DNA of 64,000 nucleotides from a bacterium. Its GTDB lineage: Bacteria > Oederibacteriota > CAKKQC01. Under the pieces are notes generated by a model. The model made no database searches, had not been told where the DNA came from, and worked only from the letters and a program-made list of their open reading frames with translations. The position numbers and the translations under genes were made by a program. The stretch is from contig CAKKQC010000010.1 in assembly GCA_919901855.1 (NCBI GenBank), positions 1 through 64,000 on the forward strand. The letters are read 5' to 3'. Below, in pieces: positions 21,262 to 60,166 of the stretch (positions are counted from its first letter, which is position 1; each line of letters begins with the position of its first letter).

Positions 21262-22827
21262 CTACCTTCGCAAGTCGAGGACGACGGCCAGCGGCACGCC
21301 CATCCGCGATACCGTGATGACTTCCTTCCCTCCCCGGGGAGGCACGCATTCGCCCCAGGCAGCGGTCATGCCCAGGTAGAAATCGGCCCGCGCACCCCCG
21401 GTGGCGCGCACGAACCGGGGCCCCAGGGCCTCCGAGGCGGGCGCCCAGTCGCCGCACAACCGTACCCGCCATGTCCCGGTCCGCGGCTCCGCGGCCACGC
21501 GCGATGACAACCCGGCCGCCGCTTCCGTAATCGCGGTGCCCCAGTACTCGGTGTCGAACCGCCCCGCGGCGCCCCGGAGCCCCCCGGCGAAGGCGTTGAA
21601 CGACGCGTACTCGTACGGAAACAGCCGGGCGGTTAGAACGACCTGGCGGGCCGCGGCCACGACGAGAACAGCCGCGAGGACGGCGCTGCTCCGGTGGGAC
21701 AGGTGCGCCAGCAGGCGCTCCAGCGCGACCGCGGCGAGACAGGCGAGCGCGGGGAGGATGAAGAGCGTGTGGCGAATGCCGTTGTACATGGGCGTCCGGC
21801 GGGCGACGGCGTAGAGCAGCGGGAAGGCCGCACAGAGGCACACCGTCGCGACGGCGAGCACGGCGGGGTCGCGCCGCCATTCCCGGCGCCGCCGGCCCAG
21901 GCGCCGGAGCCGCGCCACCGCGAGCCCCGCCCCGGCCGCGAGCAGCAGGAGCAGGGGCTCGGGGAGGGTGAGGCCCAGCAGCACGGGTAGGTACGACCGC
22001 GGCAGCCGGGTCGCGACCTCGAGCCGGCCGTCGAAGAGGACGGGGAACGGGGTCGGGAACCGGTCGAAGACCCGCAGGGCGTCGAAGAGCCCGGTGACCG
22101 GGTGCGCGAGCGCGTATGGCCACGCCGCGAGCATGACGAGCCAGGCAATGCACGTCGTCAGCAGAAGGGTCCGCGCATACGGCCACACCCCCGGACGCCC
22201 CGGCGCGATCGCGGCGTGGGTGGCCAGCAAGGCGGCCAGACAGGCGAGGTAGATGACGCCTCCCGCCCGGACGCCGAGCGCGGCGCCGATGGCCACACCC
22301 GTCAAGGCCGCGAGGCCGGGCGGCGGGGCGCCGCCCGCCCGCGCCATCCGGACCAGCCCCGAAAGCGCCCACGCGCCGGCCGCCGCGAAGGGGATGTCCT
22401 TGGAGTTGATGAACATCTGGCCCCACCAGCCCGGGATGAGCGCGAGCAGGAGGGCCGCCACGAAGGCCGCGCGGGGTCCCCCGAGCGCGAGGGCGGCGTG
22501 CCAGCATCCCGCGATCCCGGCCAGTCCGGCGACGGCGCCCGCCAGCGACCGGGTTGCGTGGACGCCGAGGGCAGAGCGCGACGCCAGCCACGAGACCGGG
22601 GTCTCGAAGAGGCCGCCGTAGTAGCGCCAGTCCCAACTGAAGTTGCAGCGGACGTCACGTCCTCCCGTGGCGTAAAACCGTCCGAGGAGCGTTCCGTAGG
22701 CCTGCTGGGTCGGCTCGTCCGCCGCTACGCCGTAAGAGCGGAACGTGGCCAGCGCGACGCCCGCCAGGACGGCGAACAGGACGAGCGTGGCGAGGTGCCA
22801 GCGGGCGCCGGACCCGGGGGGAGCCAT
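21262..22827 (-). CDS. GT39/ArnT-like membrane glycosyltransferase
   Basis: This polytopic protein of 521 residues has about ten membrane helices. The first loop carries acidic AADEPTQQAYGTLLGRFY and the next WDWRYYGGLFE, resembling the catalytic loops of polyprenyl-phosphate-dependent mannosyl/arabinosyl transferases (GT39/GT83 clan). PGWWGQMFINSKDIPFAA and YNGIRHTLFILPAL also fit that group. It probably transfers a sugar to a protein or lipid outside the inner membrane; donor and acceptor are unknown. ATG 22827 is chosen because a TATGAT box lies seven bases upstream; ATG 22839 is in frame but falls inside that box. It diverges from the next gene over a shared promoter core. Confidence 0.72.
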   Translation of the reverse strand: MAPPGSGARWHLATLVLFAVLAGVALATFRSYGVAADEPTQQAYGTLLGRFYATGGRDVRCNFSWDWRYYGGLFETPVSWLASRSALGVHATRSLAGAVAGLAGIAGCWHAALALGGPRAAFVAALLLALIPGWWGQMFINSKDIPFAAAGAWALSGLVRMARAGGAPPPGLAALTGVAIGAALGVRAGGVIYLACLAALLATHAAIAPGRPGVWPYARTLLLTTCIAWLVMLAAWPYALAHPVTGLFDALRVFDRFPTPFPVLFDGRLEVATRLPRSYLPVLLGLTLPEPLLLLLAAGAGLAVARLRRLGRRRREWRRDPAVLAVATVCLCAAFPLLYAVARRTPMYNGIRHTLFILPALACLAAVALERLLAHLSHRSSAVLAAVLVVAAARQVVLTARLFPYEYASFNAFAGGLRGAAGRFDTEYWGTAITEAAAGLSSRVAAEPRTGTWRVRLCGDWAPASEALGPRFVRATGGARADFYLGMTAAWGECVPPRGGKEVITVSRMGVPLAVVLDLRR

Positions 22828-22833
22828 GGACCG

Positions 22834-22840
22834 TATCATA
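22834..22840. promoter_or_regulatory. Bidirectional -10 core between divergent membrane genes
   Basis: TATCATA serves both strands. Plus TATCAT (22834-22839) is seven bases before ATG 22847; minus TATGAT (22840-22835) is seven bases before ATG 22827. Both transcripts would be leaderless. Confidence 0.5.
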
Positions 22841-22846
22841 GAAGGA

Positions 22847-25450
22847 ATGCACGCACTCTTCGTGGTCTGGGCAGTCGTGATCCTCGTCCAGCTCGCCCGG
22901 CCGCTCTCGGGCGCGTGGGCCGGGGCCATGGTCCAGCTCGGGACGGGCTGGGCCGCGCCGTCGGCCGCCGGCGTCCTCGCCGCCGCGACGGCCCACGCCT
23001 CGGTCCTCCTCGCGGCGGGCGGGATCGCGGGGGTCCTGTGGCTCGCGGGGCTCGCCGTTCTGCCGTGGAGCCGCTCCCCGCGCGGGCTCTCGGCGTTCGC
23101 CGCGTTCCCCGCCGGCTACGCGGGGGTGAGTCTCGGGTATCTCGGCCTCGCGCTGACGGGGCTCTGGTTCCCGCGCGTGCTCCTCCCGGTCCTGGTCCTG
23201 CCCGGGCTGGTCGCCGTGCTCGTCCGCGGGCGCCGGCTGCTCCCGCGCGGGACGGCGTGGCCGGCGGCGGACGGCCCGGGTGTGCTTGCGCTGGCGGTCC
23301 TCACGTGCGTCGTGCCGTGGGCGCTCGCGCCCGAGACGCACCCCGACGGCTGGGAGTACTTCCTCGCCGGGCCCGCGCGGTGGCTCGCGGCGCACCGGTT
23401 CTCGGTCCGGGGCGGGACGCCGCCCCTGCACTATCCCGACATCGCCGAGATGCTCTACGTCCTCCCGGTGTGGCTGGGGCTGGATGCGGTCGCGAAGTGG
23501 CTGAACGCGCTCGCCATGCTCTGCGGCGCGCTCTCCGTGGCCTCGCTCCTCCCGCGGGAATCGCGGAGCATGGGGTTGCTCCTGTTCGTGACCGCCGCGA
23601 CGCCGTTGTTCCTCATGACGACGGGGAAGAACGAGGGCTTCGCGGCGGGGTTCGTCCTCCTCGCGGTCGCGTGCGCGTGGCGGAATGCCTGGACGGCGGG
23701 CGGGTTCTTCGCCGGGCTCGCGCTCTCGACGAAATACCTCTCGGTGCTCAACCTCGCCTGGCTGCCGCTCCTCATGACGCCGGGGCGCCGCCGCGCCCAG
23801 TTCACGCGGTGGGCCGCGCTCGCGGCGGGCACGACGGCGGCGTGGTGGGTGAAGGCGTGGCTGCTGACCGGCGATCCCGCGTACCCGGTGGCGTCCGGGT
23901 TCCTGCCCGGTCTGGTGGACGGCTGGGACGCCCGCAACGCCCGCGTCTGGCACCTGTGCACGGCCGTCGACCGCCCGGCCGGATCCTGGCCGGTCCGGGC
24001 CGTGCAGGGGTTGACACTGGAGAACGCGGCGCTCGCGCTGTGCCTCCCCGCCCTGCTCTGGGAGAAGGGGCGGGCGCGGCTCGCGGTCGCGGGCTCCGTG
24101 GCCGTCTACGCCGCCTGGCAGATCGGGTTCCCGGGACCCCAGACCGTGCGATGGGCGTTCCCCGGCGTGGCGGCGGCGCTCGTGCTCTCCGGCGGGCCGG
24201 CCCGCCGGTGGCTGGCGGGCCCGAAATATCTGCGCACGGCGTTGCTGGCCGTCTGCGTCGCGGGCGGCGTGCACGCATTCCTGCGGCTGGCCGGGAACGG
24301 CATGAACCCCCTGCCCTATCTCGCCGGAGCCGAATCCCGGGCGGGCTATCTCGCGCGGGCCTTTACGACCCTGGTTCCGGCGTCCGACGCGGTCCGCCGG
24401 GGCTTTTCCGGCGGCGCCCTGCTCCTCGTCGGCGAGGTGCGCGAGTACGGCCTGCCCTTCCCCTGCCGGCTCGCGAGCGCGCATGCGAGCGGGGAGGCTC
24501 CGCTCCTGTGGCGGCTCGTGCACGCGAGCGCGACCGAGCGCGACCTCGAGGTCCGGTTCCGCCAGCTCGGCATCCGCCGCGCACTGTACAACTACGTCAC
24601 GGTCAAGAACGTCCAGTTCTGCCACGCGCCGTTCCGGTGGGACGACCGGATGCTCAGGCTATACGCTGGGTTCGTCCTCCGGCACTTCAAGCCCCTCCGC
24701 GTCTCCGACGTCGCGGATTTCTCCAACGGCGGGTTCATTGTCTACGGCGTGACCGCCCGGGCGATCCCGAACCCTCCGAAGACGGCGCCGTACCTCCCGG
24801 GCGCGGAGGCCTACTGCCACACGGCGGTGCCGCTGCGGAACGCCGGGCGTATGCCGGAGGCCCTGCGCGCGTACGAGGCGCTCGCCGGGCTCTGTCCCGA
24901 GGTCCTGTCGTTCCAGGCGGAGTGGGGGCACACCCTCGAAATGGCCGGCGACTGGCCGGGGTCGTTCCGCCTCCTCGGGGCCGCGGTGCGCGCCGGATTC
25001 GCGGAGCCCTTTCACCTCGTGAACTTCGGGCTCGCCGCCCTCCAGATGGATCGCTACGCCGAGGCCGACGCCGTCCTCACGCGGTGCCTGGCCGGCGCGC
25101 CGTCGCATGCGGGCGCGGTTCGCGTCTCGCTGGGCTGGGCCCGCTACGGGCTGGCGCTGGAGGCGGGGAAGAAGCGGAATCTGGCGGTCGCGGAGGTGCG
25201 ACTGGCGGAGGCCGAGGGGCTCCTGGGCCTCCCGGCGGGCCCCCCGGGCGACCGGATCGAAAACGAGCGTCGGCGGCGGCTCGCGTACGTGCGCGGCCTG
25301 CAGGGCGACCTCGCGCGCGCCCGCCGCGAGTTCCCCCGCGCCGTCGAGCGATACCGCGCGGCGGCCGCGCTCGTGCCGGGGACCAACGAGGGGAACGTCT
25401 GGTCGGAACTGGCGTCCCGCCTCGCCAACCGCGGTATCACGGGTCCCTGA
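22847..25450 (+). CDS. Polytopic membrane protein with C-terminal TPR domain
   Basis: I do not recognise a named family. Of 867 residues, about 500 form roughly a dozen hydrophobic helices with GT-C-like features: the loop APETHPDGWEYFLAGP after an early helix, and TTGKNEGFAAGFVLLAVA. An extracytoplasmic domain follows (FNGGF-type segment DFSNGGFIVYGV), then ~250 residues of TPR-like helices (RMPEALRAYEALAGLCPEV, YAEADAVLTRCL). A paralogue with the same order lies at 30264. I infer a role in envelope glycan assembly, perhaps O-linked transfer, but no acceptor is known. ATG 22847 follows a TATCAT box by seven bases; ATG 22826, which overlaps the divergent gene's start, is an alternative. Confidence 0.72.
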   Translation: MHALFVVWAVVILVQLARPLSGAWAGAMVQLGTGWAAPSAAGVLAAATAHASVLLAAGGIAGVLWLAGLAVLPWSRSPRGLSAFAAFPAGYAGVSLGYLGLALTGLWFPRVLLPVLVLPGLVAVLVRGRRLLPRGTAWPAADGPGVLALAVLTCVVPWALAPETHPDGWEYFLAGPARWLAAHRFSVRGGTPPLHYPDIAEMLYVLPVWLGLDAVAKWLNALAMLCGALSVASLLPRESRSMGLLLFVTAATPLFLMTTGKNEGFAAGFVLLAVACAWRNAWTAGGFFAGLALSTKYLSVLNLAWLPLLMTPGRRRAQFTRWAALAAGTTAAWWVKAWLLTGDPAYPVASGFLPGLVDGWDARNARVWHLCTAVDRPAGSWPVRAVQGLTLENAALALCLPALLWEKGRARLAVAGSVAVYAAWQIGFPGPQTVRWAFPGVAAALVLSGGPARRWLAGPKYLRTALLAVCVAGGVHAFLRLAGNGMNPLPYLAGAESRAGYLARAFTTLVPASDAVRRGFSGGALLLVGEVREYGLPFPCRLASAHASGEAPLLWRLVHASATERDLEVRFRQLGIRRALYNYVTVKNVQFCHAPFRWDDRMLRLYAGFVLRHFKPLRVSDVADFSNGGFIVYGVTARAIPNPPKTAPYLPGAEAYCHTAVPLRNAGRMPEALRAYEALAGLCPEVLSFQAEWGHTLEMAGDWPGSFRLLGAAVRAGFAEPFHLVNFGLAALQMDRYAEADAVLTRCLAGAPSHAGAVRVSLGWARYGLALEAGKKRNLAVAEVRLAEAEGLLGLPAGPPGDRIENERRRRLAYVRGLQGDLARARREFPRAVERYRAAAALVPGTNEGNVWSELASRLANRGITGP

Positions 25451-27751: not shown

Positions 27752-27808
27752 TGTGAAGAAAGTGCATTCTGGACGGACGAGGCGGGGCTTGGTCACGCGG
27801 GTGTGTGG

Positions 27809-27814
27809 TATGGT
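27809..27814 (+). promoter_or_regulatory. Extended -10 of the serine palmitoyltransferase-type gene
   Basis: TGG followed by TATGGT (27809-27814) forms a TGN-extended -10, eight bases before ATG 27823. Confidence 0.4.
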
Positions 27815-27822
27815 ATTCCGCG

Positions 27823-29070
27823 ATGCCAGTACACAAATCCGACGACCACACGGCCACGGCGCACGGCGCCGCCAAGCCGGTGGATCTCTTCACCAAGTGC
27901 TATGAATGGCCCGTAGTCAAGAAGGCGATGGCGGAGGGCTACTACCCGTATTTCACTCCGATCACGGGGGAGCAGGGCGAAGAGGTCGTCATCCGGGGCA
28001 AGCGGTTCATCATGCTGGGCTCGAACAACTACCTCGGGCTCACGAACGACCCCCGGGTGAAGGAGGCCGCCCGCGAGGCCATCCTCAAGTACGGCGTCGG
28101 GTGCACGGGGTCCCGGTTCTTGAACGGCACCCTCGACCTCCACCTCAAGCTCGAGGCGGAGCTCGCGGCGTTCCTGAAGAAGCCCGCCGCCCTCGTCTTC
28201 TCGACCGGCTACCAGACCAACCTCGGAATCATCGCCTCCCTCGTCGGCAAGGACGACGTCGTCATCAGCGACCGGCTCAACCACGCCTCGATTTTCGACG
28301 GGTGCCGGATGGCCTACGGCAAGACCCTCAAGTACCGGCACGACGATCTCGCGGACCTCGAGCGCCTGCTCAAGGGCGCGCCCGCGCGGGCGGGCAAGCT
28401 CGTGGTCGTGGACGGCGTCTTCAGCATGGAAGGCACGTGCCCCAACCTCAAGCGGATCGTCGAGCTGTGCCACCAGTACACGGCGCGGCTGATGGTCGAC
28501 GAGGCGCACGGCCTCGGCGTGCTGGGCGAGGGCGGCCGGGGAGCCTGCGAGGAGCAGGGGGTCCTCCCGCAGGTGGATGTCATCATGGGGACCTTCTCGA
28601 AGTCGTTCGCCTCGATCGGGGGCGTGGCGGCGGGCGACCAGGACGTCATCGTCTACATCAAGCACCTGGCGCGGGCCATGATCTTCTCGGCGGCCCTGCC
28701 GCCGCCCGCCATCGCGACCGTGCTCAAGTGTCTCGAGATCCTCAAGGCCGAGCCCGACCGGCGCAAGCGCCTGCTCGCGAACGCGGACCTGCTGCGGAAC
28801 GGGCTGCGCGGCATAGGGTTCAACGTCGGCAACTCGGTGACCCCGATCGTCCCCGTGCTCGTCGGCCGGGACGACCTCTGCTTCGCGCTGTGGAAGGGCC
28901 TCTTCGAGGAGGGCATCTTCGTGAACCCGGTCGTCGCGCCCGCGACGCCGCCGGGCCACGCGCTTCTCCGGGTTTCTACCATGGCGACGCACACGCCCGC
29001 GATCCTGAACCGCGCGCTCGAGAAGTTCAAGGCGGTGGGGACGCGCCTCGGAGTCCTGGGCGGGCGCTAG
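27823..29070 (+). CDS. spt: Serine palmitoyltransferase-type alpha-oxoamine synthase
   Basis: This PLP enzyme of the alpha-oxoamine synthase family has 415 residues. It would condense an amino acid (serine in SPT) with a long acyl thioester to give a 3-keto sphingoid base. Visible are the SPT-like lead GYYPYFTPITGEQGEEV, the SNNYLGLTNDPRV strand, GCTGSRFLNGTLDLHLKLE, LVFSTGYQTNLG, DEAHGLGVLG, and the PLP lysine Lys260 in GTFSKSFASIGG. That last motif is the bacterial SPT form; BioF and Kbl usually read GTLGKA. The next gene is a GNAT-type acyltransferase and a dehydratase-type reductase lies 3.8 kb on, the three activities of bacterial ceramide synthesis. Alternatives are a BioF or Kbl-like role, or sulfonolipid (cysteate-using) synthesis. 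Confidence 0.8.
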   Translation: MPVHKSDDHTATAHGAAKPVDLFTKCYEWPVVKKAMAEGYYPYFTPITGEQGEEVVIRGKRFIMLGSNNYLGLTNDPRVKEAAREAILKYGVGCTGSRFLNGTLDLHLKLEAELAAFLKKPAALVFSTGYQTNLGIIASLVGKDDVVISDRLNHASIFDGCRMAYGKTLKYRHDDLADLERLLKGAPARAGKLVVVDGVFSMEGTCPNLKRIVELCHQYTARLMVDEAHGLGVLGEGGRGACEEQGVLPQVDVIMGTFSKSFASIGGVAAGDQDVIVYIKHLARAMIFSAALPPPAIATVLKCLEILKAEPDRRKRLLANADLLRNGLRGIGFNVGNSVTPIVPVLVGRDDLCFALWKGLFEEGIFVNPVVAPATPPGHALLRVSTMATHTPAILNRALEKFKAVGTRLGVLGGR

Positions 29071-29074
29071 TCGC

Positions 29075-30214
29075 ATGCTCAGGCTGGTCGAGGTCGGGGT
29101 CCAGGACAAGGCCCAGCGTCTCCGGTTCGTGAAAATGCCATGGGTCGTCTACCGCGGAAATCCGTACTGGGTCCCTCCCATCATCCACGACGACATGCAC
29201 CTCCTCGACCGGGAGCACCACCCGTTCTGGACGGACAGCGGCAAGGGCCGGTTCTGGGTCGCCGAGCGCGACGGTAAGGACGTCGGCCGGATCGCGGCGA
29301 TCCGGAACTTCCCCCACGAGAAACGCTGGAAGGAATCCGCCGGGTTCTTCGGGTTCTTCGAGTGCGCGGAGCAGGGCGCGGCCGGGCTCGAGGTCACGAA
29401 GATGCTCCACGAGGCGGTCCGCGAGGCCGTCAAGGGCTGGGGCCTGACCCACTACTACGGCCCCGCGAACCCGTCCTCGAACTACGCCTTCGGGGCCCTG
29501 ATCGAGGGATTCGACCTCACGCCCCGGATCATGATGACCTATAACCCGTCCTATTACGACGGACTGATGAAGGAGGCCGGGCTCGCGAAAGCCAAGGACC
29601 TCCTGGCCTGGGACCTGTCGCCCAAGTCCGACTTTTCCCGGATCAGGAGGATCGCGGACCGGATCGAGTCCCGTCACCGGGTCCGCATCCGCGACATCAA
29701 CATGAAGAAGTACAAGGAAGAGATCGCGATCATCAAGAGTATCTACACCGACGCCTGGTCCGACAACTGGTGCTCGTGCGAGATGTCCGACGGCGAGTTC
29801 GACGCGATGGCCAAGGAGATGCTCCCGATCGTGGACCCGGACTTCGTGTACATCGCCGAGATCGAGGGCCAGCCGGTCGGATTCTCGCTCTCCCTGCCCG
29901 ACGCGAACCCGGCGGTCAAGGAGATCAACGGACGGCTCTGGCCGTTCGGCGTGCCCCGCCTCCTGTTCCACACGAAGGTGTGGCCGAAGCTCAGGGGCAT
30001 CCGGATCCTTACGCTCGGCATCCGCAGGAAGTACTGGACGCTGGGGATCGGCACGTCGTTCTACATCCGGTCCCACGATCGGGTCGGAGCCAAGGGCCTT
30101 ACCTACGGCGAGGCGTCCTGGATCCTCGAGGACAACAACCTCATGAACCACGCGCTCGAGGCCATGTCGGGCAAGGTCACCCGCAGGTACCGCGTGTACC
30201 GCGGAGAAGCCTGA
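29075..30214 (+). CDS. GNAT-fold acyltransferase, candidate bacterial ceramide synthase
   Basis: The 379-residue protein starts four bases after the previous stop. The N-terminal half reads MPWVVYRGNPYWVPPI, GRFWVAERDGKDVGRIAAI and SAGFFGFFECAEQ, a GNAT-like acyl-CoA transferase pattern; the second half has another GNAT-like strand set (FVYIAEIEGQPVGFSLSLPD, LGIRRKYWTLGIG). There is no membrane segment. Bacterial ceramide synthase (bCerS of Caulobacter) is a GNAT-superfamily protein unrelated to eukaryotic CerS. The close pairing with an SPT-type gene makes N-acylation of a sphingoid base the best inference. Proteins of this type are usually annotated only as hypothetical or N-acetyltransferase, so the substrate is unproven. 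Confidence 0.62.
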   Translation: MLRLVEVGVQDKAQRLRFVKMPWVVYRGNPYWVPPIIHDDMHLLDREHHPFWTDSGKGRFWVAERDGKDVGRIAAIRNFPHEKRWKESAGFFGFFECAEQGAAGLEVTKMLHEAVREAVKGWGLTHYYGPANPSSNYAFGALIEGFDLTPRIMMTYNPSYYDGLMKEAGLAKAKDLLAWDLSPKSDFSRIRRIADRIESRHRVRIRDINMKKYKEEIAIIKSIYTDAWSDNWCSCEMSDGEFDAMAKEMLPIVDPDFVYIAEIEGQPVGFSLSLPDANPAVKEINGRLWPFGVPRLLFHTKVWPKLRGIRILTLGIRRKYWTLGIGTSFYIRSHDRVGAKGLTYGEASWILEDNNLMNHALEAMSGKVTRRYRVYRGEA

Positions 30215-30224
30215 CGGGAGCCCT

Positions 30225-30247
30225 ACCGGTCGCAATCTGCGACCGGT
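30225..30247. terminator. Perfect ten-pair hairpin between acyltransferase and TPR gene
   Basis: ACCGGTCGCA (30225-30234), loop ATC, TGCGACCGGT (30238-30247). It starts ten bases after the acyltransferase stop and ends 16 bases before the next ATG. There is no T-run; it could attenuate transcription or protect the upstream mRNA. Confidence 0.55.
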
Positions 30248-30263
30248 TCCCGGCTTCTCTCCG

Positions 30264-32873
30264 ATGACGACGGCGCTCGCGTTGGGGTGGGCAGCCGTCG
30301 TGATCCGCTCCGCCCGCGGCGACGGGGCCGCCTGGCTCGACCGGCTCCGCGACGCCATCCGGCATCCGCCGCAGATCCCGGCGCTTTCCGGCCTGGCCGT
30401 CGCGTGCGGGCGCCACTCGGTCACGGTCCTCGTGCTCGCCTCCCTTGCCGCGTTGGCGTGGCTCGCAGGCCGCCGCGTCGCCGCCCTCGTGCGGGCCCCG
30501 CGTGTCCCGCCGGCCGCGGGGTTCGGGTTCGCCGTCGCGTCCGGGTGGGGCCTGCTCGGGTTCCTCCTCCTTGGGCTGGCGCTGACCGGGCTCTTCCAGC
30601 CTGCCGTGGTGCTCTCCGCTATCGCGGTTGCCGGGGCCGCCGGCATCGGGGCGCCGGGACGGCTCCCCGTTCTCCCGCGGCTCGACCGGGGCACGGCCGC
30701 GATCCTGGCCGTCGTGGGCCTCCCGGGAGTCGTGCTGGGCGTCGCGGCGCTCCTGCCCGACGTCTTCTACGACACCTACGCGAACCACCTCGCGGCGCCC
30801 GCCCACGTCCTCGGGCTCCACCGGCTCGTGACCGCCGGCCAGCACTACACGATCAACTACCAGCTTGCCTCCGAGCTCCTGAACGCGCTAGCCATTGTCT
30901 TCCGGCGGGATGAAATCGCGCACGGGGTCTCCCTGATCCCGTTCCTGGCGGGGCTGGGCGTGGCCGCGGCGTGGACGGCCCGGGTCGCGGGTCCGCGGGC
31001 GGCCGCACTCGGGGCCGCGCTGGCCCTCGACCTCGGCGGGTTCTGGTGGGTGGTGCTCCGGGGCAAGAACGATCCCGCGGCGGCCGGGTTCATTCTGCTC
31101 GCCGTCGTGTTTTCCGTGGACCGGCGGTGGATCCTCTCCTCCCTGTGCTGGGGGTTCGCGCTGGCGGCCAAGCTCAACGCGTACATGCTCGCGATGCCGG
31201 CGGCCGCGCTCGCGGCGTTCGTGATCCTGCGGGCGCCCGCCGGCCGCCGCGGCCGTACGCTCGCGTGGTCCGCGGGGCTCGCCGCCATCCCCGCCCTGCC
31301 CTGGATGGTCCGGTCATGGCTCGACCGCGGGACACCATGGTGGCCGCTCCTCTCCGCCCGGTTCCACGGCGTGCCGTGGGAACCCGACACCGTGGTCGCG
31401 CTCGCCCAGTACCACACCGGGCCGTCGTTCGTGACCGAGTCGCTCTCGAGCTTCGTGCCAACGTGGCTGGCGGACAACCCCATCCTGCTCTGGGCCCTGC
31501 CCGTCGCGGCGTGGCAGCTGCGACGCGCGCCTGCGGCGCTCCGGCGGATGGGGGGATGGGCCGCGATGCTGTTCCTGTTCCTCTTTGGCGTCATCCATAT
31601 GGAGTACGGCCGGTACTCCCTGCCCATCCTCGTCCTGCTCGGGTTCGCGTGCGCGCCCGCGATCCTGTCGATGATCCCGTCCGGCCGGGGCCGGTGGATC
31701 GGGTGGGCGGCCGTCGTCGCGCTCGCGTGGGCCCCCGCGGCGGGCGCGCTCCGGGAGATGGGGCTCGGCGCCCGGGAGATCGCCGGGTACGCCTCCGGGG
31801 CGATCACGAACGGAGAGTGGATGGACCGGGTCCTGACCACGCGCCGCGCCGCCCAGCAGGCGGTGGCCGCGATGCCGGGAGTCCGCGGCGTCGTCCTCGT
31901 GGACGAGGTGTACGCCTACGGGTGGCCGGGCCGCGTCCGAACCGACGAGATCCCCGGCCGGGCGATCCCGTGGGTGCTCACCCACGAAGCGTCGACCCCG
32001 GCGCGGGTTCGCGTCGGGCTCCGGCAGTTGCGCGCCAGCCACCTCGTCCTGAACTACGTGAGCGAGGGCCACCCCTACAACGCGAGCATCTACGAATGGT
32101 CCGACCGCCAGCTCGAACTCTGGCGCGCGTTCCTGAAGCGGCACGCCGAACGCGTCGCGATCGACCTGCCATGCGACGTGCCCAATGGCGGGTTCTGCCT
32201 CTGGAGGCTCGTGGCCTCAGCTCCGCCGGAGCCGTTGTTCTACCTGCTCGGGATCAAGCCCCTGCGGGTCTGGATCCGGAAGCCGTACCTCGACGCCGGG
32301 GACGCCCCGGCCTCGGCCGCCCGCGCGCTCGCCGTGAGTGCGCGGTTTCCCGACGTGCTCGTCTTCAAAGCCGATGCCGGGCTCTTTCTGGCCGGGTCGG
32401 GCGAGTGGGCCAGGGGCTACCCGCTGCTGCGTGAGTGCGCGGCGGCGGGGATGGTGGGGGAGGCGCTCCACACGTACCTCGGGTCGGCGGCCATGCACCT
32501 GAACCGGTACGACGAGGCCCTGCGCCACCTGGCGACGGCCGGGCGGCTCTACCCCGGCGCAAGAGCCGATATCGAGGCGAGGACGGGGGAAGTGCTGGCG
32601 CGGAAGGCCCGGGCCGAACTCCGCGCCGGTCTCTACGGGCGCGCGCTCGACCTCGCGATCGAGGCGGTGCGCCTCGCGCCCGCATCTTCGTTTTCCCTCG
32701 TGACGCTGGCTGACGTGCGGATGGTGCGTGGAGAGACCGCGGAGGCGCTTGCCGGCTACCTCCGGCTCGCGTCGCTCGCGGGCGTCCCGGACGGAATCCG
32801 GCGGCACGCGGACGAGATGATCGCGAGGTGCCGGGCTACGCCCAGCGGTTCGCCCGGTACCAGTCCCAGGTGA
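30264..32873 (+). CDS. Polytopic membrane protein with C-terminal TPR domain (paralogue)
   Basis: The 869-residue protein has the same plan as the gene at 22847: about a dozen membrane helices, an extracytoplasmic domain, and a TPR-like C-terminus (MHLNRYDEALRHLATAGRLYP, YGRALDLAIEAVRLAPAS). Shared marks include VLRGKNDPAAAGFILLAVVF against TTGKNEGFAAGFVLLAVA, and DVPNGGFCLW against DFSNGGFIVY. The early loop has DVFYDTYANHLAAPAHVLG, acidic as in GT-C transferases. A function in envelope glycan or lipid modification is inferred only from fold and neighbours. It follows the acyltransferase by 49 bases with a hairpin between. The 3' end overlaps the convergent reductase gene by 38 bases. Confidence 0.72.
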   Translation: MTTALALGWAAVVIRSARGDGAAWLDRLRDAIRHPPQIPALSGLAVACGRHSVTVLVLASLAALAWLAGRRVAALVRAPRVPPAAGFGFAVASGWGLLGFLLLGLALTGLFQPAVVLSAIAVAGAAGIGAPGRLPVLPRLDRGTAAILAVVGLPGVVLGVAALLPDVFYDTYANHLAAPAHVLGLHRLVTAGQHYTINYQLASELLNALAIVFRRDEIAHGVSLIPFLAGLGVAAAWTARVAGPRAAALGAALALDLGGFWWVVLRGKNDPAAAGFILLAVVFSVDRRWILSSLCWGFALAAKLNAYMLAMPAAALAAFVILRAPAGRRGRTLAWSAGLAAIPALPWMVRSWLDRGTPWWPLLSARFHGVPWEPDTVVALAQYHTGPSFVTESLSSFVPTWLADNPILLWALPVAAWQLRRAPAALRRMGGWAAMLFLFLFGVIHMEYGRYSLPILVLLGFACAPAILSMIPSGRGRWIGWAAVVALAWAPAAGALREMGLGAREIAGYASGAITNGEWMDRVLTTRRAAQQAVAAMPGVRGVVLVDEVYAYGWPGRVRTDEIPGRAIPWVLTHEASTPARVRVGLRQLRASHLVLNYVSEGHPYNASIYEWSDRQLELWRAFLKRHAERVAIDLPCDVPNGGFCLWRLVASAPPEPLFYLLGIKPLRVWIRKPYLDAGDAPASAARALAVSARFPDVLVFKADAGLFLAGSGEWARGYPLLRECAAAGMVGEALHTYLGSAAMHLNRYDEALRHLATAGRLYPGARADIEARTGEVLARKARAELRAGLYGRALDLAIEAVRLAPASSFSLVTLADVRMVRGETAEALAGYLRLASLAGVPDGIRRHADEMIARCRATPSGSPGTSPR

Positions 32874-33816
32874 GCTTGAGGCCGGACTCCAGCGGCGTGG
32901 ATGCCGTCCAGCCCAGCTCCTCGCGCGCGCGCGACGGATCGGAGTGCCAGCGCAGGGCGTGGAAGTCGTGGAACCGGTCGGCAACCGCCGCTAGCCCGGG
33001 GATCCGGGCCAGCCGGTCGGGATGGAGCAGGAAGGCCGGAGCCCGGACCGTCAGCGCCCGGCGGCCCATCGCCCGCTCGATCGCGGCCCCGAACGAGCGG
33101 TAGGTCTCCGGCTCCGGCGGCACGATGTAGTAGGCCCGCGGTTCGCCCGCGGGGGCGCGCAGGGCGCAGAGCGCGGCGTCGGCGACATCGGGGCCGTACA
33201 GGATCTGGAACCGGCGGAGGCCGTCGCCGAGCTGGGGCTTGAGCCGCAGCCGCACGAGCTTGAAGTAGGCGAGGAAGGCCCGGTCGGCGGGCCCGTAGAG
33301 CGCGCCGGGACGCAGGAACACCCGCCGCGTTATGGCGCCGCCGTCCGCGATGATCGCGAGCTCGCCCTCGCGCTTGGACTTCCCGTACCACGACCGCGGA
33401 TCGGGGGGGTCGTCCTCGCGCCGGGCGGGCGCGCCCTCGGCCACGGGGCCGGTGGCGGCCTGGCTCGAGATGTAGATGAACGTCTCGACGCCCGCCGCCC
33501 CGGCGGCTCGCGCCGCGGCGGCGGTTCCATCGCGGTTCACGCGGAGATAGGTCTCGAAGTCCGGGGCCTGGACGACGCCCGCGTTGTGGACGAAGATCCG
33601 GGCACCGCGGGCGAGGGCGGCGAGCGCGGCCTCGTCGGCGAGCGAGCCGCGCACGATGTTGGGGCGGAGCCCCTCGATCCGGGAGAGGTCGCTCGCGGGG
33701 CGGGCCAGGACCGCGAGCGACGCGCCCGCGCGCGCGAAGGCGGCGGCCAGGTGCCCGCCGAGAAACCCGGTCGCCCCCGTGAGCGCGACCCGGACGCCCG
33801 CGAGATCGGGCGTCAC
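32836..33816 (-). CDS. NAD-dependent epimerase/dehydratase family, candidate ceramide-pathway reductase
   Basis: This extended short-chain dehydrogenase has 326 residues. The Rossmann motif VALTGATGFLGGHLA lies at the N-terminus, FVHNAGVVQAPDF is at the usual substrate edge, and the catalytic set is visible as Ser in YISSQA and Tyr-xxx-Lys in WYGKSKREGE. C-terminal Trp-rich helices (LTWDWYRANRW) end it. Bacterial 3-ketosphinganine reductase CerR is a member of this same broad family, and an SPT-type and a GNAT-type gene lie close by on the other strand. The family is large, so sugar-nucleotide epimerisation remains possible. GTG 33816 overlaps the upstream gene's stop and gives the normal N-terminus; ATG 33858 would add a non-conserved Arg-rich stretch. 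Confidence 0.6.
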   Translation of the reverse strand: MTPDLAGVRVALTGATGFLGGHLAAAFARAGASLAVLARPASDLSRIEGLRPNIVRGSLADEAALAALARGARIFVHNAGVVQAPDFETYLRVNRDGTAAAARAAGAAGVETFIYISSQAATGPVAEGAPARREDDPPDPRSWYGKSKREGELAIIADGGAITRRVFLRPGALYGPADRAFLAYFKLVRLRLKPQLGDGLRRFQILYGPDVADAALCALRAPAGEPRAYYIVPPEPETYRSFGAAIERAMGRRALTVRAPAFLLHPDRLARIPGLAAVADRFHDFHALRWHSDPSRAREELGWTASTPLESGLKLTWDWYRANRWA

Positions 33817-34262
33817 GGCCGGCCCACGATCAGGCGCCCGTGTTCGATCTTCGTGCACCGGTTCATGACGACCGTGATCCCGGCCGCCCGCGCCTGCGCG
33901 GCAGCGCCGGCATGGACGATGCCCAGCTGCATCCAGACGCAGTTCACGCCCTTGCGGATGGCGGCGTCCACTACCGGGGGGATATGCTCGGGCTTGAGGA
34001 AGAGGTTGGCCATGTCCACGCGCTCCGGGATGTCATCCAGGCTGGCGTAGCACTTCTCCCCCAGAATCCCGGTCTGCCCCGGATTGACGGGGATGATCCG
34101 GTAACCGGCTTCCTGGAGGTACCGGGCGACGCCGTGGCTGGGCCGGTCGGGATTAGATGAGAGCCCGACGACCGCGATCGTCTTCGCCTGCCGCAGGACG
34201 CGTTCGAGGTCGGGGTCGGGCGGGTTGTCCCTCGTGATCGGGCAGTCGGTGTGGGTCGCCAC
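33813..34262 (-). CDS. CoA-binding domain protein (YccU-like)
   Basis: The 149-residue single-domain protein has the CoA_binding_2 fold. The nucleotide motif TIAVVGLSSNPDRPSHGVARYL is followed by YRIIPVNPGQTGILGEKCYASLDDIPE, DMANLFLKPEHIPPVVDAAI and NCVWMQLGI, closely following the YccU family and the N-terminal part of acyl-CoA synthetases. The role in the cell is not established; binding of CoA or an acyl-CoA is likely. GTG 34262 is chosen because homology starts near it and a GAGAAT box lies six bases upstream; the longer reading from 34373 adds Pro/Arg-rich filler and runs into the divergent rmuC gene. It overlaps the reductase gene (GTGA), so the two share a transcript. Confidence 0.78.
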   Translation of the reverse strand: MATHTDCPITRDNPPDPDLERVLRQAKTIAVVGLSSNPDRPSHGVARYLQEAGYRIIPVNPGQTGILGEKCYASLDDIPERVDMANLFLKPEHIPPVVDAAIRKGVNCVWMQLGIVHAGAAAQARAAGITVVMNRCTKIEHGRLIVGRP

Positions 34263-34268
34263 CCTGCG

Positions 34269-34274
34269 ATTCTC
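34269..34274 (-). promoter_or_regulatory. -10-like box of the CoA-binding gene
   Basis: GAGAAT on the minus strand, six bases before GTG 34262; leaderless layout. Confidence 0.35.
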
Positions 34275-34311
34275 CCCCGCGACGGCGTCACGTCGCAACT
34301 CGCTGGTGTGG

Positions 34312-34317
34312 TAGCGT
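34312..34317 (+). promoter_or_regulatory. Extended -10 of rmuC
   Basis: TGG followed by TAGCGT (34312-34317), seven bases before ATG 34325; no Shine-Dalgarno. Confidence 0.35.
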
Positions 34318-34324
34318 AACGGCG

Positions 34325-35494
34325 ATGGGCTGGATGGCCGGATTCGCGGTCGCGGTCGTGGCGGCGCTCGCACTGGGCGTCCTGTGGTGGCGCACGGAAG
34401 GCGCCGCAGCGGCGCTGCGCGCCGAGCACGAGGCGCTCAAGGCGCACCGCGAGGCCGACGCCGACAAGCTCGCCTGGATCGACCGGGCCCAGGCCGAACT
34501 GCGGGAAGCCTTCGAAGCGCTCGCGGCGCGCGCGATTCGCGAGAACGGGGCCCAGATGGTCGGGGACGCGGAGAGGGTCGTCAAGCCGCTGAAAGAGACC
34601 CTCGACCGGCTCGAGGGCCACGTCCGGGACCTCGAGACGAAGCGGGCGGGCGCGTACGGGGAGCTGCTGAACCAGCTCGGGAGCCTCCAGTCGGCGAACG
34701 CCGAGTTGACGCGCACGACGGCGACCCTGTCGCAGTCCCTGCGCTCTTCGGGCGTCCGGGGCCGGTGGGGCGAGCTGCAACTCAAGCGGGTGGTCGAGCT
34801 GGCCGGGTTGCAGGTGCACGTGGACTTCGTCGAACAGGAGGCCCGGGGCGAGGGGCGGCCCGACATGATCGTCAAGCTGCCGGGCGGCGGCGAGCTCCCC
34901 GTGGACGCGAAGGCCCCGATGGACGCCTACCTCGACGCGCTGGCGGCGACCGACGACGCCGCGCGGAGCGCCAAGCTCGACGCCCACGCCGAGGCGATCC
35001 GGCGGCGGCTCAAGGAACTGGGGGACAAGGTCTACTGGAAGCAGTTCCGGCAGGCCCCGGAGTTCGTGGCCATGTTCGTCCCCGTCGAATCCTGCCTCTC
35101 GGCCGCCTTCGAGCGCGACCCCGGCCTGCTCGAGTTCGCCATGTCCCGCCAGGTGCTCCTCGTGACCCCCGTTACCCTCCTGGCACTCCTCAAGACCGTC
35201 GCCTGGGGATGGCAGCAACAACACGTCGCCGCGAACGTTCTGCAGATCGAGGAGCTGTGCCGCGAGTTCTACGGCCGGCTCCAGCCGTTCTTGGCCAGGT
35301 TCGCGGAAACGGGGAAGAAGCTCGATCAGGCCGTGGAATCCTACAATGCCACGGTCGGGTCGGTGACCGACCGGGTGCTCCCTGCGGTGCGACGGCTCAA
35401 GGAGTTGGGCGCCGGCGCGGAGGAGCCCCCGGAGGCGAAGACGATCGAGCACCGCCCCCGCAGGGCCGAGGGGACCGGGGACAGCCGGGGCTGA
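34325..35494 (+). CDS. rmuC: RmuC family DNA recombination protein
   Basis: The 389-residue protein has an N-terminal membrane anchor (WMAGFAVAVVAALALGVLWW) and a long helical, coiled-coil-prone region rich in Ala/Glu/Leu/Arg (about 25-150). The RmuC nuclease-like domain follows: RGRWGELQLKRVVELAGL, GRPDMIVKLPGGGELPVDAKAP, MFVPVESCLSAAF and LVTPVTLLALLKTVAWGWQQ are all family signatures. RmuC limits inversion at short inverted repeats in E. coli, which is of note in a region with many short palindromes. It is monocistronic, with tRNA-Glu downstream. Confidence 0.9.
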   Translation: MGWMAGFAVAVVAALALGVLWWRTEGAAAALRAEHEALKAHREADADKLAWIDRAQAELREAFEALAARAIRENGAQMVGDAERVVKPLKETLDRLEGHVRDLETKRAGAYGELLNQLGSLQSANAELTRTTATLSQSLRSSGVRGRWGELQLKRVVELAGLQVHVDFVEQEARGEGRPDMIVKLPGGGELPVDAKAPMDAYLDALAATDDAARSAKLDAHAEAIRRRLKELGDKVYWKQFRQAPEFVAMFVPVESCLSAAFERDPGLLEFAMSRQVLLVTPVTLLALLKTVAWGWQQQHVAANVLQIEELCREFYGRLQPFLARFAETGKKLDQAVESYNATVGSVTDRVLPAVRRLKELGAGAEEPPEAKTIEHRPRRAEGTGDSRG

Positions 35495-55364: not shown

Positions 55365-56179
55365 TGGCGACGATCCTGCTCCGGGCGGCCTTCGCCGGCT
55401 ACCTGGGCGGGACGCTCGCGTTCCTGGGGTACCTGGCGACGAGGCGGCACGGGCTGGCGAAGATCGGGCTGGGCCTCTCGGTGGCGGCCCTGGCGGTGCA
55501 CACGGCCTCCTACGGCACGGACTGCGCCGTGTACCGGGCGATGGTGATCGTGACCCCGCGCGGCATGTGCTCGCTGCTCGCGTTCGTGACGGCGGCGCTG
55601 ACTCTCGCGATCGCCGCGCGCCACCGGCTCCTGATCCTGGGCGCGTTCATCATGCCCATCGTCGCGATCCTCGCCGGCGTCGCGGTCGCGGCTCCCGAGC
55701 CCGGGACCCCGGCGGTCGTCCTCCAGGGCCCGCTCTTTCCACTGCACGTCTGGACCACCTACCTCGGGTTCGCGGGGTTCACGGTCGCGTTCGGCGTGGC
55801 CGTGGCGTGGCTCGTGCAGGAGCGCGAGATCCGGTCGCGCCATCCCAAGCCGCTCGCGTTCGTGCTCCCGCCGTTGGACACGATCGAGCGGCTGAGCCTG
55901 TCGCTCGTGAACCATGCGCTCCTGCTGACGGGGGCGGGCATCGTGACGGGCGTCCTGTACCTCAAGCAGACCGACGGCGTGTGGTGGGCGTGGGAGCCGA
56001 AGGCGACGGCGACCGTTGCCTGCTGGGGAATCTACGCGGCGGTACCCGTGCTTCGCCGGACGGCGGGCTGGCGGGGCCGCCGGCTGGCGCTCCTCCTCGT
56101 CGCCGGGTTCGTATTCGTCGTCTTCATCTTTGGTGGCCTCAGCCACCTGCCCGGGCCGCTCAAGCCGGGTCCGCGCTAG
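55364..56179 (+). CDS. HemX/CcsA-like cytochrome c assembly membrane protein
   Basis: The 271-residue protein has about eight helices. The CcsA-family haem motif appears as DGVWWAWEPKATATVACWGIYA (a WWxWE/D form), with TTYLGFAGFTVAFGVAVAWL and a final FGGLSHLPGP. Proteins of this size next to hemA are often annotated HemX and are thought to regulate or stabilise glutamyl-tRNA reductase. Here it lies ten bases upstream of hemA, so either that role or a second System II component is plausible. Confidence 0.82.
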   Translation: MATILLRAAFAGYLGGTLAFLGYLATRRHGLAKIGLGLSVAALAVHTASYGTDCAVYRAMVIVTPRGMCSLLAFVTAALTLAIAARHRLLILGAFIMPIVAILAGVAVAAPEPGTPAVVLQGPLFPLHVWTTYLGFAGFTVAFGVAVAWLVQEREIRSRHPKPLAFVLPPLDTIERLSLSLVNHALLLTGAGIVTGVLYLKQTDGVWWAWEPKATATVACWGIYAAVPVLRRTAGWRGRRLALLLVAGFVFVVFIFGGLSHLPGPLKPGPR

Positions 56180-56189
56180 CCCTCCAGCC

Positions 56190-57482
56190 ATGGGCCTGCT
56201 GTGCCTGGGCCTGTCGCATCGCACGGCGCCGCTCGCCGTGCGGGAACGCCTGGCGTTATCCCGGGACGAGATCGCGGAGGCGGCGGCCATGGTCCGGCGC
56301 CTCTCCGGCATCGACGAGGCCGTGGTGGTGTCCACCTGCAACCGGATCGAGCTCTACATCGCCGGGGCCGGCCGCGCGGCCGGGCCGGCCGAGCCGCCCG
56401 GGGTGGCGTGGCGCCGCACCGTCGGCGCGGTCGTCCGGCTCCTCGCCAAGGCTCGCCGGGTGCCGGCGGGCGTCCTCGCCCGGTCGTCGTACGTGCACGC
56501 GGACCTCGACGCCGTGCGCCACCTGATCGAGGTCGCGGCCGGCCTCGACTCCCAGGTCGTGGGGGAGGCCCAGATCCTGCCCCAGGTGCGCCGCGCCCAC
56601 GAGGCCTCGTTGCGCGCGGGCGCGACGGGCCCGGTCCTGAACGGCGTCTTCAACCGGGCCCTGGCCGCCGCCAAGCGCGTTCGCACCGAGACCGAGATCG
56701 GACGGCTGCCGGCGTCCGTGAGCTCGGTCGCCGTGGACCTCGCGGAACGGATCTTCGGCGAGCTGGCCGGGCGCACGGTGCTCCTGATCGGGACCGGCGA
56801 GACGGCGGAGCTCGTGGCCGAGAACCTGGTCGGGGACAGCGATCTCATGGTCCTGGTGGCGAGCGAGCGGCACCACGAGGCCGCCCGGCGAATCGCGCAC
56901 CGGTTCGGGGGCGAGGCCATCGAGCTCGCGGCGGTGCCGGCTGCGCTGGCCCGCGTGGACATCGTGATCGCGGCCACGGCGGTCAAGGAACCGGTTATCC
57001 TCCGGGCCCACCTCGCCGCGGCCATGGCGCACCGCAAGGCGCGCCCCATCTTCCTCGTCGACCTCGGCGTCCCGCGCAACATCGAGGCGGGCGCCGGCGA
57101 CGTGGCCGGCGTCTACCTCTACGATCTCGACGACCTCAAGGGGGTGGCGGACGGCAACCTGAAGCGCCGGGAGGAATGGATCGCGCCCGCGCGCCGCATC
57201 GCGGAGGCGGAAGTGGCGGCGACCGGAGCGTGGCTCGCCACCCTCGAGGTCGTCCCCGTCATCCGCGACCTCGAGCGGTTCGGCGAGGCCTGCCGGCAGG
57301 CCGTGCTGGCGCGCGCCGGCCGGCGCGTGCGCGACCTGCCGCCGGAGACGCGGGAGGAGGTCGAGTACCTGACGAAGGCGCTGGTGGCCAAGCTGCTGCA
57401 CCCGCCGATCCGCAACCTCAAGGACCTGCCCGGTCCGGGGCGGTACGCCGACCTCGTGCGCCGGCTCTTCGGATTCCAGTGA
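56190..57482 (+). CDS. hemA: Glutamyl-tRNA reductase
   Basis: This is the first enzyme of the C5 haem pathway, reducing glutamyl-tRNA-Glu to glutamate semialdehyde with NADPH. The 430-residue product has the N-terminal LGLSHRTAPLAVRERLA, catalytic Cys50 in VVSTCNRIELY, GLDSQVVGEAQIL, the nucleotide motif VLLIGTGETAELVAENL, DLGVPRNIEAGAG and the C-terminal dimerisation helices (EEVEYLTKALVAKLLHPPI). HemL is not in this window. ATG 56190 is preceded by CCTCCAGCC with no good Shine-Dalgarno, so translation may be coupled to the HemX-like gene. Confidence 0.95.
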   Translation: MGLLCLGLSHRTAPLAVRERLALSRDEIAEAAAMVRRLSGIDEAVVVSTCNRIELYIAGAGRAAGPAEPPGVAWRRTVGAVVRLLAKARRVPAGVLARSSYVHADLDAVRHLIEVAAGLDSQVVGEAQILPQVRRAHEASLRAGATGPVLNGVFNRALAAAKRVRTETEIGRLPASVSSVAVDLAERIFGELAGRTVLLIGTGETAELVAENLVGDSDLMVLVASERHHEAARRIAHRFGGEAIELAAVPAALARVDIVIAATAVKEPVILRAHLAAAMAHRKARPIFLVDLGVPRNIEAGAGDVAGVYLYDLDDLKGVADGNLKRREEWIAPARRIAEAEVAATGAWLATLEVVPVIRDLERFGEACRQAVLARAGRRVRDLPPETREEVEYLTKALVAKLLHPPIRNLKDLPGPGRYADLVRRLFGFQ

Positions 57483-58411: not shown

Positions 58412-59199
58412 CCCGGCCGCCGCTGGCCGGCGTGCGCGTGGTCACCACGCGGGAAGGGCCCGCGGATCCGGTGCTGGCTCGTCACCTTCGGCTGGTCGGA
58501 GCCCGCGTGATCGGCTGCCCGGCGATCCGGCTGGAACGGATTACCCGCCCGCGAGGCGCGGTCGCCGTCGTGCGGCGGTGGCCGGCGTTCGACTGGATCG
58601 TCTTCACGAGCGCCGCCGCCGTCCGTGACTGGAACCGGTTCCGCCGGGCGAGAAGGCTGGGTCCGCGGGGACCGCGGGCCGCCGCGGTGGGACGCGAGAC
58701 CGCGCGCGCGATCCGGAACGTCCTCGGCCTCCGCGTGGCCGCCATGCCGAAGAGGTTCTCGGGGGACGCGCTGGCCGGCGCGCTCGGCCCGGTCCGCGGC
58801 CTCAGGATCCTGATCCCGCGCGCCCTCGTGGCCCGCGAAGCCCTGCCGCGCGAGTTGAGGCGGCGGGGGGCCACGGTCACGATCCTCCCGCTCTACCGGA
58901 CCCGTCCCGACGCGCAAGGGCTTCTGGCCCTCCGCCGCCTCGTCCTGGCCGGCCGCGCCGACTGGGTGGCGTTCGCGAGCCCGTCGGCCGCGGCGTCCGT
59001 CTTCGGCGCCCTGGGCGTGGCGGGGCGCCGGGCTTTCCGGGCGCGCGTCCGGGCCGCCTCGATCGGCCCCACCACGTCGGCGGCGCTTCGCCGCCGGGGG
59101 CTGCCCCCGGCGGCGGAAGCGGCGACATCGACCATGGCCGGCCTCGCGAGGGCGATCCTGCGGTACCATCGGAGGAGACATGTCACCCCGGCTCGCTGA
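58408..59199 (+). CDS. hemD: Uroporphyrinogen-III synthase
   Basis: It closes hydroxymethylbilane to uroporphyrinogen III with inversion of ring D. The 263-residue protein has low overall similarity, as is normal for HemD, but the two-lobed pattern is there: [50 protein letters not shown]-type [33 protein letters not shown] and [16 protein letters not shown]. The C-terminus is Arg-rich and overlaps hemB by 20 bases. No methyltransferase is fused. Confidence 0.88.
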
Positions 59200-60166
59200 T
59201 CTCCGTGTCCGCCCGCGGCGCCTGCGCCGTTCCGAGGCCCGCCGCCGGCTGGTCCGCGAGACCGTCCTCACTCCGGACGATCTCGTCATGCCGTACTTCG
59301 TCATCCCCGGCCGCCGGCGCCGGGAGCCGGTTCCGTCGATGCCCGGCGTCGAGCGGCTCACGGTGGACGAACTAGTCCGCGAGGCCGCGGCGCTGTTCCG
59401 GCTCGGGGTGCCCGGCGTCATCCTGTTCGGCCTGCCGTCCCGCAAGGATGCGACCGGCAGCGAGGCGTGGTCCGGTTCCGGCGCCGTTCAGCAGGGCGTC
59501 CGGGCGCTCAAGCGGGCCGTGCCGGATCTCGTCGTCATGACCGACGTTTGCCTGTGCGAGTACACCCACCACGGCCACTGCGGCGTGTTCCACGGCGGCG
59601 AGGTGGACAACGACGCGACCCTGCCCCTGCTGGCAAAAGCCGCTCTGTCGCACGCCCGCGCGGGAGCGGATCTCGTGGCGCCGTCGGACATGATGGACGG
59701 GCGCGTGCGCGCGATCCGGCGGGCGCTGGACCGGGCCGGATTCGCGCGGACCGGCATCCTCGCCTACGCGGCCAAGTACGCGTCCGGTTTCTACGGGCCC
59801 TTCCGCGAGGCCGCGGGGTCCACGCCGCGCTCCGGGGACCGGCGGGGCTACCAAATGGACCCGCCCAACGCGCGCGAGGCGATGCGCGAGATCGCCCTCG
59901 ATCTCGAGGAGGGGGCGGACGCGGTCATGGTGAAACCCGCGCTCGCGTACATGGACGTGATCCGGATGGCGCGGGAACGGTTCGATGCGCCGCTCGCCGC
60001 CTACAACGTGAGCGGTGAGTACGCGATGGTGAAGGCCGCCGCCGCGCGGGGGTGGCTGGACGAGCGCCGGGTGGTCCTCGAGATCCTGACGGGGCTGAAG
60101 CGCGCCGGGGCCGACTTCATCCTCACTTACCACGCGAAGGACGCGGCACGGTGGCTGCGCGGGTGA
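59180..60166 (+). CDS. hemB: Porphobilinogen synthase (delta-aminolevulinate dehydratase)
   Basis: It condenses two 5-aminolevulinates to porphobilinogen. The 328-residue product keeps both active-site lysines: Lys199 in [14 protein letters not shown] and Lys252 (Schiff base) in [13 protein letters not shown]. The zinc cysteines are present in [17 protein letters not shown], so it is the Zn-dependent type. [14 protein letters not shown] is conserved. GGAGGAGACATG gives a close ribosome binding site within hemD. With hemA, C and D it covers most steps from glutamyl-tRNA to uroporphyrinogen III except HemL. Confidence 0.95.

Follow-up and report, generated by a model that had tools for sequence, protein, structure and literature searches.

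Can three neighboring genes of an uncultured bacterium of the Oederibacteriota account for the synthesis of a ceramide? In ceramide synthesis, serine palmitoyltransferase (SPT) condenses serine with an acyl thioester, a ceramide synthase (bCerS) adds a second acyl chain, and a reductase (CerR) reduces the keto group. The initial annotation of the window (the whole 64,000-nucleotide stretch of contig CAKKQC010000010.1 analyzed here) had placed all three enzyme types within 6 kb and had proposed the pathway from them. The three open reading frames (ORFs) show the codon-position GC of real genes in this DNA (∼0.93 at the third position), and their motifs are intact, which bears out the gene set. 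Family placement, motifs, linkage, and co-occurrence agree, and we consider it very probable that the three predicted activities together make a ceramide (dihydroceramide) backbone, with an SPT that is Bacteroidota-like; the bacterium itself probably makes sphingolipids.

The first gene (positions 27823 to 29070, plus strand) encodes an alpha-oxoamine synthase that motif, NCBIfam, PDB, and tree comparisons assign to the serine palmitoyltransferases, of a Bacteroidota-like type. Its longest ORF spans 27805-29070(+), with the likely start at the ATG at 27823. The PLP lysine lies within GTFSKSFASIGG (motif GTFSKS); it is K266 in the longest ORF and, counted from the ATG, the K260 that had been named initially. 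In an alignment with 8guh, 2jg2, named SPTs, Kbl, and BioF, the lysine motif reads FSKS in the window synthase and the SPTs, LGKA in Kbl, and FGKG or LGKA in BioF (FGKG in E. coli BioF), and the catalytic motifs of the window synthase are those of 8guh and 3a2b. The top NCBIfam model was SerpalmtaseCFB (Bacteroidota-type SPT) with 494 bits, compared to 378 for bioF and 317 to 375 for the Kbl-type models. The Bacteroidota-type SPTs 8guh and 3a2b are the best solved relatives of the synthase (388 bits, E value of 5e-115), ahead of 2jg2-type SPTs. NCBIfam has three lineage-specific SPT models, and the protein scores under the curated cut-off of each (640 bits for the CFB model); no non-SPT model reached its own cut-off. 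Identity to the rhodobacterial type of SPT is only 40%. A tree built from 82 synthases places the window protein in one group (93% SH-aLRT) with SPTs from Sphingomonas, Roseomonas, Diaphorobacter, E. coli, Rubrobacter, Aureispira, and Myxococcus, and the BioF, Kbl, and ALAS references all fall outside this group; the genome's second synthase (contig C68) also lies outside the SPT clade and groups with BioF. By sequence, then, the synthase is of the SPT type, among the SPTs and away from BioF, Kbl, and ALAS. Its closest partner in the tree comes from a Candidatus Eisenbacteria genome (97% SH-aLRT). A kinship of the two bacteria on this basis was rejected on the evidence of threonyl-tRNA synthetase, which is 49% identical to that of the Candidatus Eisenbacteria genome and up to 59% identical to those of same-phylum genomes.

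Bacteroidota SPTs use acyl-CoA, and rhodobacterial SPTs rely on a dedicated carrier, AcpR, which AasR loads (PMC11324152, PMC9386255). In E. coli BL21 and Caulobacter, the set that has been described comprises five genes: spt, acp, cerR, a fatty acyl-AMP ligase gene, and yghO (PMC9386255). Unlike this set, the window has no acp ORF (acpR) adjoining the SPT gene, and the genome yielded no good match to AasR (the best had 49 bits over 97 residues); the rhodobacterial five-gene subtype with AcpR and AasR was therefore rejected for this locus. Because the SPT is nearer to the Bacteroidota type and neither partner was found, acyl-CoA is the likelier donor. The synthase would thus join a fatty acyl thioester to an amino acid, most likely L-serine, to form 3-ketosphinganine; the thioester, as for the SPTs of Bacteroidota, is probably acyl-CoA. 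The same machinery could instead take alanine, glycine, cysteate, or another amino acid and give a 1-deoxyceramide or a sulfonolipid-like lipid: 1-deoxysphingolipids have been reported, SPT-like enzymes may accept alanine or other amino acids (PMC11334938), and a cysteate acyltransferase (28eh) is a relative of SPT. However, this cysteate enzyme matched the synthase with 260 bits in comparison to 388 bits for the serine palmitoyltransferases, and the window holds no sign of a cysteate route. We regard a substrate other than serine as unlikely and keep serine as the predicted one.

The second gene (29075 to 30214, plus strand) begins four bases past the SPT stop codon on the same strand and encodes a tandem-GNAT acyltransferase of 379 amino acids; both the gap and the GNAT fold are as initially annotated. 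The Pfam match (Acetyltransf_1) is barely over its cut-off. Compared to SPT-linked bCerS-type proteins, including E. coli YghO, the protein is 31 to 36% identical with 97 to 99% coverage (E values of 1e-48 to 3e-75), and these alignments place it in the YghO/bCerS family, which in E. coli is encoded next to other ceramide genes, rather than in a non-lipid family. An AlphaFold2 model of the protein is confident (mean pLDDT of 93) and matches tandem GNATs over its full length, with VIA-align Z scores of up to 24.5 over 306 residues; the nearest folds are MAB_4324, a glucosamine N-acetyltransferase, and mycothiol synthase, and N-myristoyltransferases also match (Z of about 16.5). The modeled fold fits an N-acyltransferase, and a common fold proves no function. 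A literature search found no structure of a bacterial ceramide synthase. In the family tree, the window protein sits on a long branch and its position in the family is not fixed, with SPT-linked and unlinked members mixed together. Six genomes of the phylum (G011, G012, G014, G016, G017, and G018) carry a bCerS-family GNAT without an SPT-clade synthase or CerR, and their GNATs may have another substrate. Given the long branch, the unfixed position, and these six genomes, family membership by itself is no proof of a ceramide role; taken together, homology, fold, and linkage make the window GNAT a probable ceramide synthase.

The third gene (32836 to 33816, minus strand; GTG start) encodes an extended-SDR reductase of the NAD-dependent epimerase/dehydratase family (Pfam Epimerase, E value of 2e-25) with intact TGATGFLG (TGxxGFxG) and WYGKSK (YxxSK) motifs, which agrees in family and strand with what had been proposed. 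Profile and reciprocal searches point to a probable CerR. A profile made from 41 SPT-linked reductases of other bacteria scored it at 246.6 bits, compared to 131.6 bits for the runner-up among 14 other SDRs from the same genome, and it was the first match in this genome to the E. coli CerR-type reductase. Its matches to SPT-linked reductases of other bacteria have E values of 1e-37 to 1e-48. The reductase tree places it on the side of CerR, at a split with weak support (75/80). Its placement with the SPT-linked CerR-type proteins, rather than with non-lipid families, is therefore supported by the profile score, the reciprocal search, and genome co-occurrence, with weak support from the tree. 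Caulobacter CerR is reportedly periplasmic (PMC11087976). In the window reductase, neither a signal peptide nor a membrane segment is evident, and the Rossmann motif lies ∼12 residues from the start. Upstream of the reductase gene lies a gene for a CoA_binding_2 (YccU-like) protein (33813 to 34373, minus strand; PF13380, E value of 5e-45) with no known role in the pathway. Its TGA stop codon overlaps the GTG start codon of the reductase as GTGA, and the two are therefore probably cotranslated.

How the three genes are distributed links them further. SPT (E below 1e-114, with the next match at 3.5e-85) and CerR (E below 1e-25) were found in the identical 20 of 45 genomes from the phylum, and 19 of these 20 also had the GNAT. 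Two such sets of 20 among 45 would coincide by chance with a probability of 3e-13, a value that is not corrected for relatedness. SPT and CerR are thus present or absent jointly in the phylum, and a sparsely sampled candidate lineage joins the predicted sphingolipid makers. The one genome compared from the same taxonomic family as the window (G001, 83% complete) lacks the three-gene set. Across bacteria, 52 of 80 GNAT loci had SPT nearby, and 29 of 32 tested genomes with such a GNAT also had SPT somewhere. In 56 of 66 SPT loci, the GNAT is the next gene after SPT and is encoded on the same strand; this figure is biased upward since most of these loci were gathered via the GNAT. The three-gene neighborhood, whose conservation the initial annotation had proposed as a check, is thus kept in related loci.

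For comparison with known systems, the clusters of Sphingomonas, Roseomonas, Diaphorobacter, and E. coli were used as references in place of the Caulobacter proteins. The window shares the three enzyme families and the gene linkage with Spt, bCerS (CC_1154), and CerR (CC_1164) of Caulobacter crescentus and with the E. coli set; identity to the E. coli members over near full length is 31% for the GNAT and 29% for the reductase. It also resembles SPT-bCerS-CerR clusters of Bacteroidota/Ignavibacteriota, Zixiibacteriota, Myxococcota, Acidobacteriota, Candidatus Eisenbacteria, and others, in which bCerS likewise follows SPT on the same strand; compared to these clusters of other phyla (compare PMC11334938), SPT is mostly 45 to 59% and the GNAT 34 to 43% identical. 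Unlike in those clusters, CerR in the window lies 2.6 kb downstream of SPT-bCerS in convergent orientation, on the opposite strand and past a membrane/TPR gene. The position of CerR varied among the 66 SPT loci: 30 had it upstream and divergent, and on the SPT strand, 8 had it upstream and 12 downstream. The pathway was found in Caulobacter, then predicted in 9 phyla and later in ∼40 phyla from Black Sea metagenomes (PMC11334938), and the window is one more well-supported instance of this widespread, known pathway and no new system.

This gene order bears on the last two steps, for which acylation first and reduction first are in dispute (PMC11087976, PMC11324152). Bacterial cerS has been described as always lying in a different operon from spt (PMC11324152). 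In the window, by contrast, bCerS directly follows SPT, and, judged by gene order, SPT and bCerS in the same operon are common outside the Rhodobacteria, contrary to that description. Here and in many related genomes, SPT and bCerS probably form one transcription unit, with CerR separate. The tandem-GNAT bCerS, probably encoded on the same transcript as SPT, would transfer a second fatty acyl chain to the amino group, and CerR, from its separate opposite-strand unit, would reduce the 3-keto group with a nicotinamide cofactor to give dihydroceramide. A transcript with SPT and bCerS but without CerR fits acylation before reduction, and a possible, still tentative explanation of the arrangement is that N-acylation of 3-ketosphinganine precedes reduction across these phyla. 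If so, the step order put forward for Caulobacter by one group would be the general bacterial order. Gene order (bCerS behind SPT, and CerR apart and often divergent) offers a simple comparative argument in the dispute. However, some loci have CerR on the SPT strand immediately upstream of SPT, and the argument from gene order is therefore only suggestive.

The initial annotation had further suggested that two GT-C-like membrane/TPR paralogues and an ArnT-like transferase flank the set and might glycosylate the lipid. The membrane/TPR protein encoded between bCerS and CerR (30264 to 32873, plus strand) has TPR matches and multiple hydrophobic segments, and its paralogue is encoded at 22745 to 25450 (plus strand). 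The paralogy holds (BLASTP of the C-terminal parts, 30% identity over 372 columns, E value of 5e-23), while the assignment to GT-C goes back to a single marginal Pfam ALG3 match in the 30264-32873 protein (24.0, with a cut-off of 23.6). The "ArnT-like" protein (21262 to 22929, minus strand) has hydrophobic segments and no Pfam match. That the locus makes a glycosylated ceramide, with these GT-C/TPR proteins as the glycosyltransferases, would agree with their proximity and with the ALG3 match and hydrophobic segments of the 30264-32873 protein. However, among 80 related loci, none had a match to that protein close to the ceramide genes, its paralogue is encoded ∼2 kb from SPT in the other direction, separated from SPT by an unrelated BNR-repeat protein, and the 21262-22929 protein lacks Pfam support. 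Given the marginal GT-C match and the missing linkage elsewhere, we find the glycosylating role unsupported and a glycosylated product very improbable; the 30264-32873 protein is probably not part of the pathway. Least credible of all is that the synthase is a BioF, Kbl, or ALA synthase (ALAS) that lies by chance beside a GNAT and a sugar epimerase, both unrelated to it: the families are all broad and the synthase stays below the curated SPT cut-offs, but its tree placement, the genome's own BioF-like paralogue elsewhere, the conserved three-gene neighborhood, and the identical distribution of SPT and CerR speak against it. The window also encodes glutamyl-tRNA reductase (GlutR; 56016-57482, plus strand) and ALA dehydratase (ALAD; 59180-60166, plus strand) of the C5 heme route, and so an ALA synthase is not needed.

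The dihydroceramide predicted for this locus would enter the envelope of a bacterium that bears LpxC and presumably has two membranes. LpxC is present in this genome and in 44 of the 45 genomes of the phylum, so that a loss of lipid A is not suggested, and a sphingolipid in place of lipid A was rejected as an explanation.

When plasmid records were searched with the window GNAT, E. coli yghO was found next to spt, acp, and genes for an epimerase-family reductase and a fatty acyl-AMP ligase; in this E. coli record, which is listed as a plasmid (NZ_MG591698.1), the genes lie by the glc operon. This grouping with spt, acp, the cerR-type reductase, and the acyl-AMP ligase makes YghO the likely ceramide synthase of E. 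coli. In SPT clusters of Myxococcota (L080, L085, and L086), the reductase is flanked by two bCerS-family GNAT copies, which suggests acyltransferases that differ in acyl or base preference. Linked ceramide genes were also found on plasmids of Sphingomonas, Roseomonas, Diaphorobacter, Rubrobacter, and Aureispira. The 122-kb Aureispira anguillae plasmid pAUEa (NZ_AP026868.1) carries a CerR-SPT-bCerS cluster, plasmid 1 of Rubrobacter radiotolerans carries all three ceramide genes, and a conjugative IncP plasmid of Diaphorobacter carries spt, acp, the acyl-AMP ligase gene, and bCerS together with LptF/LptG-like genes; the ceramide genes are thus mobile.
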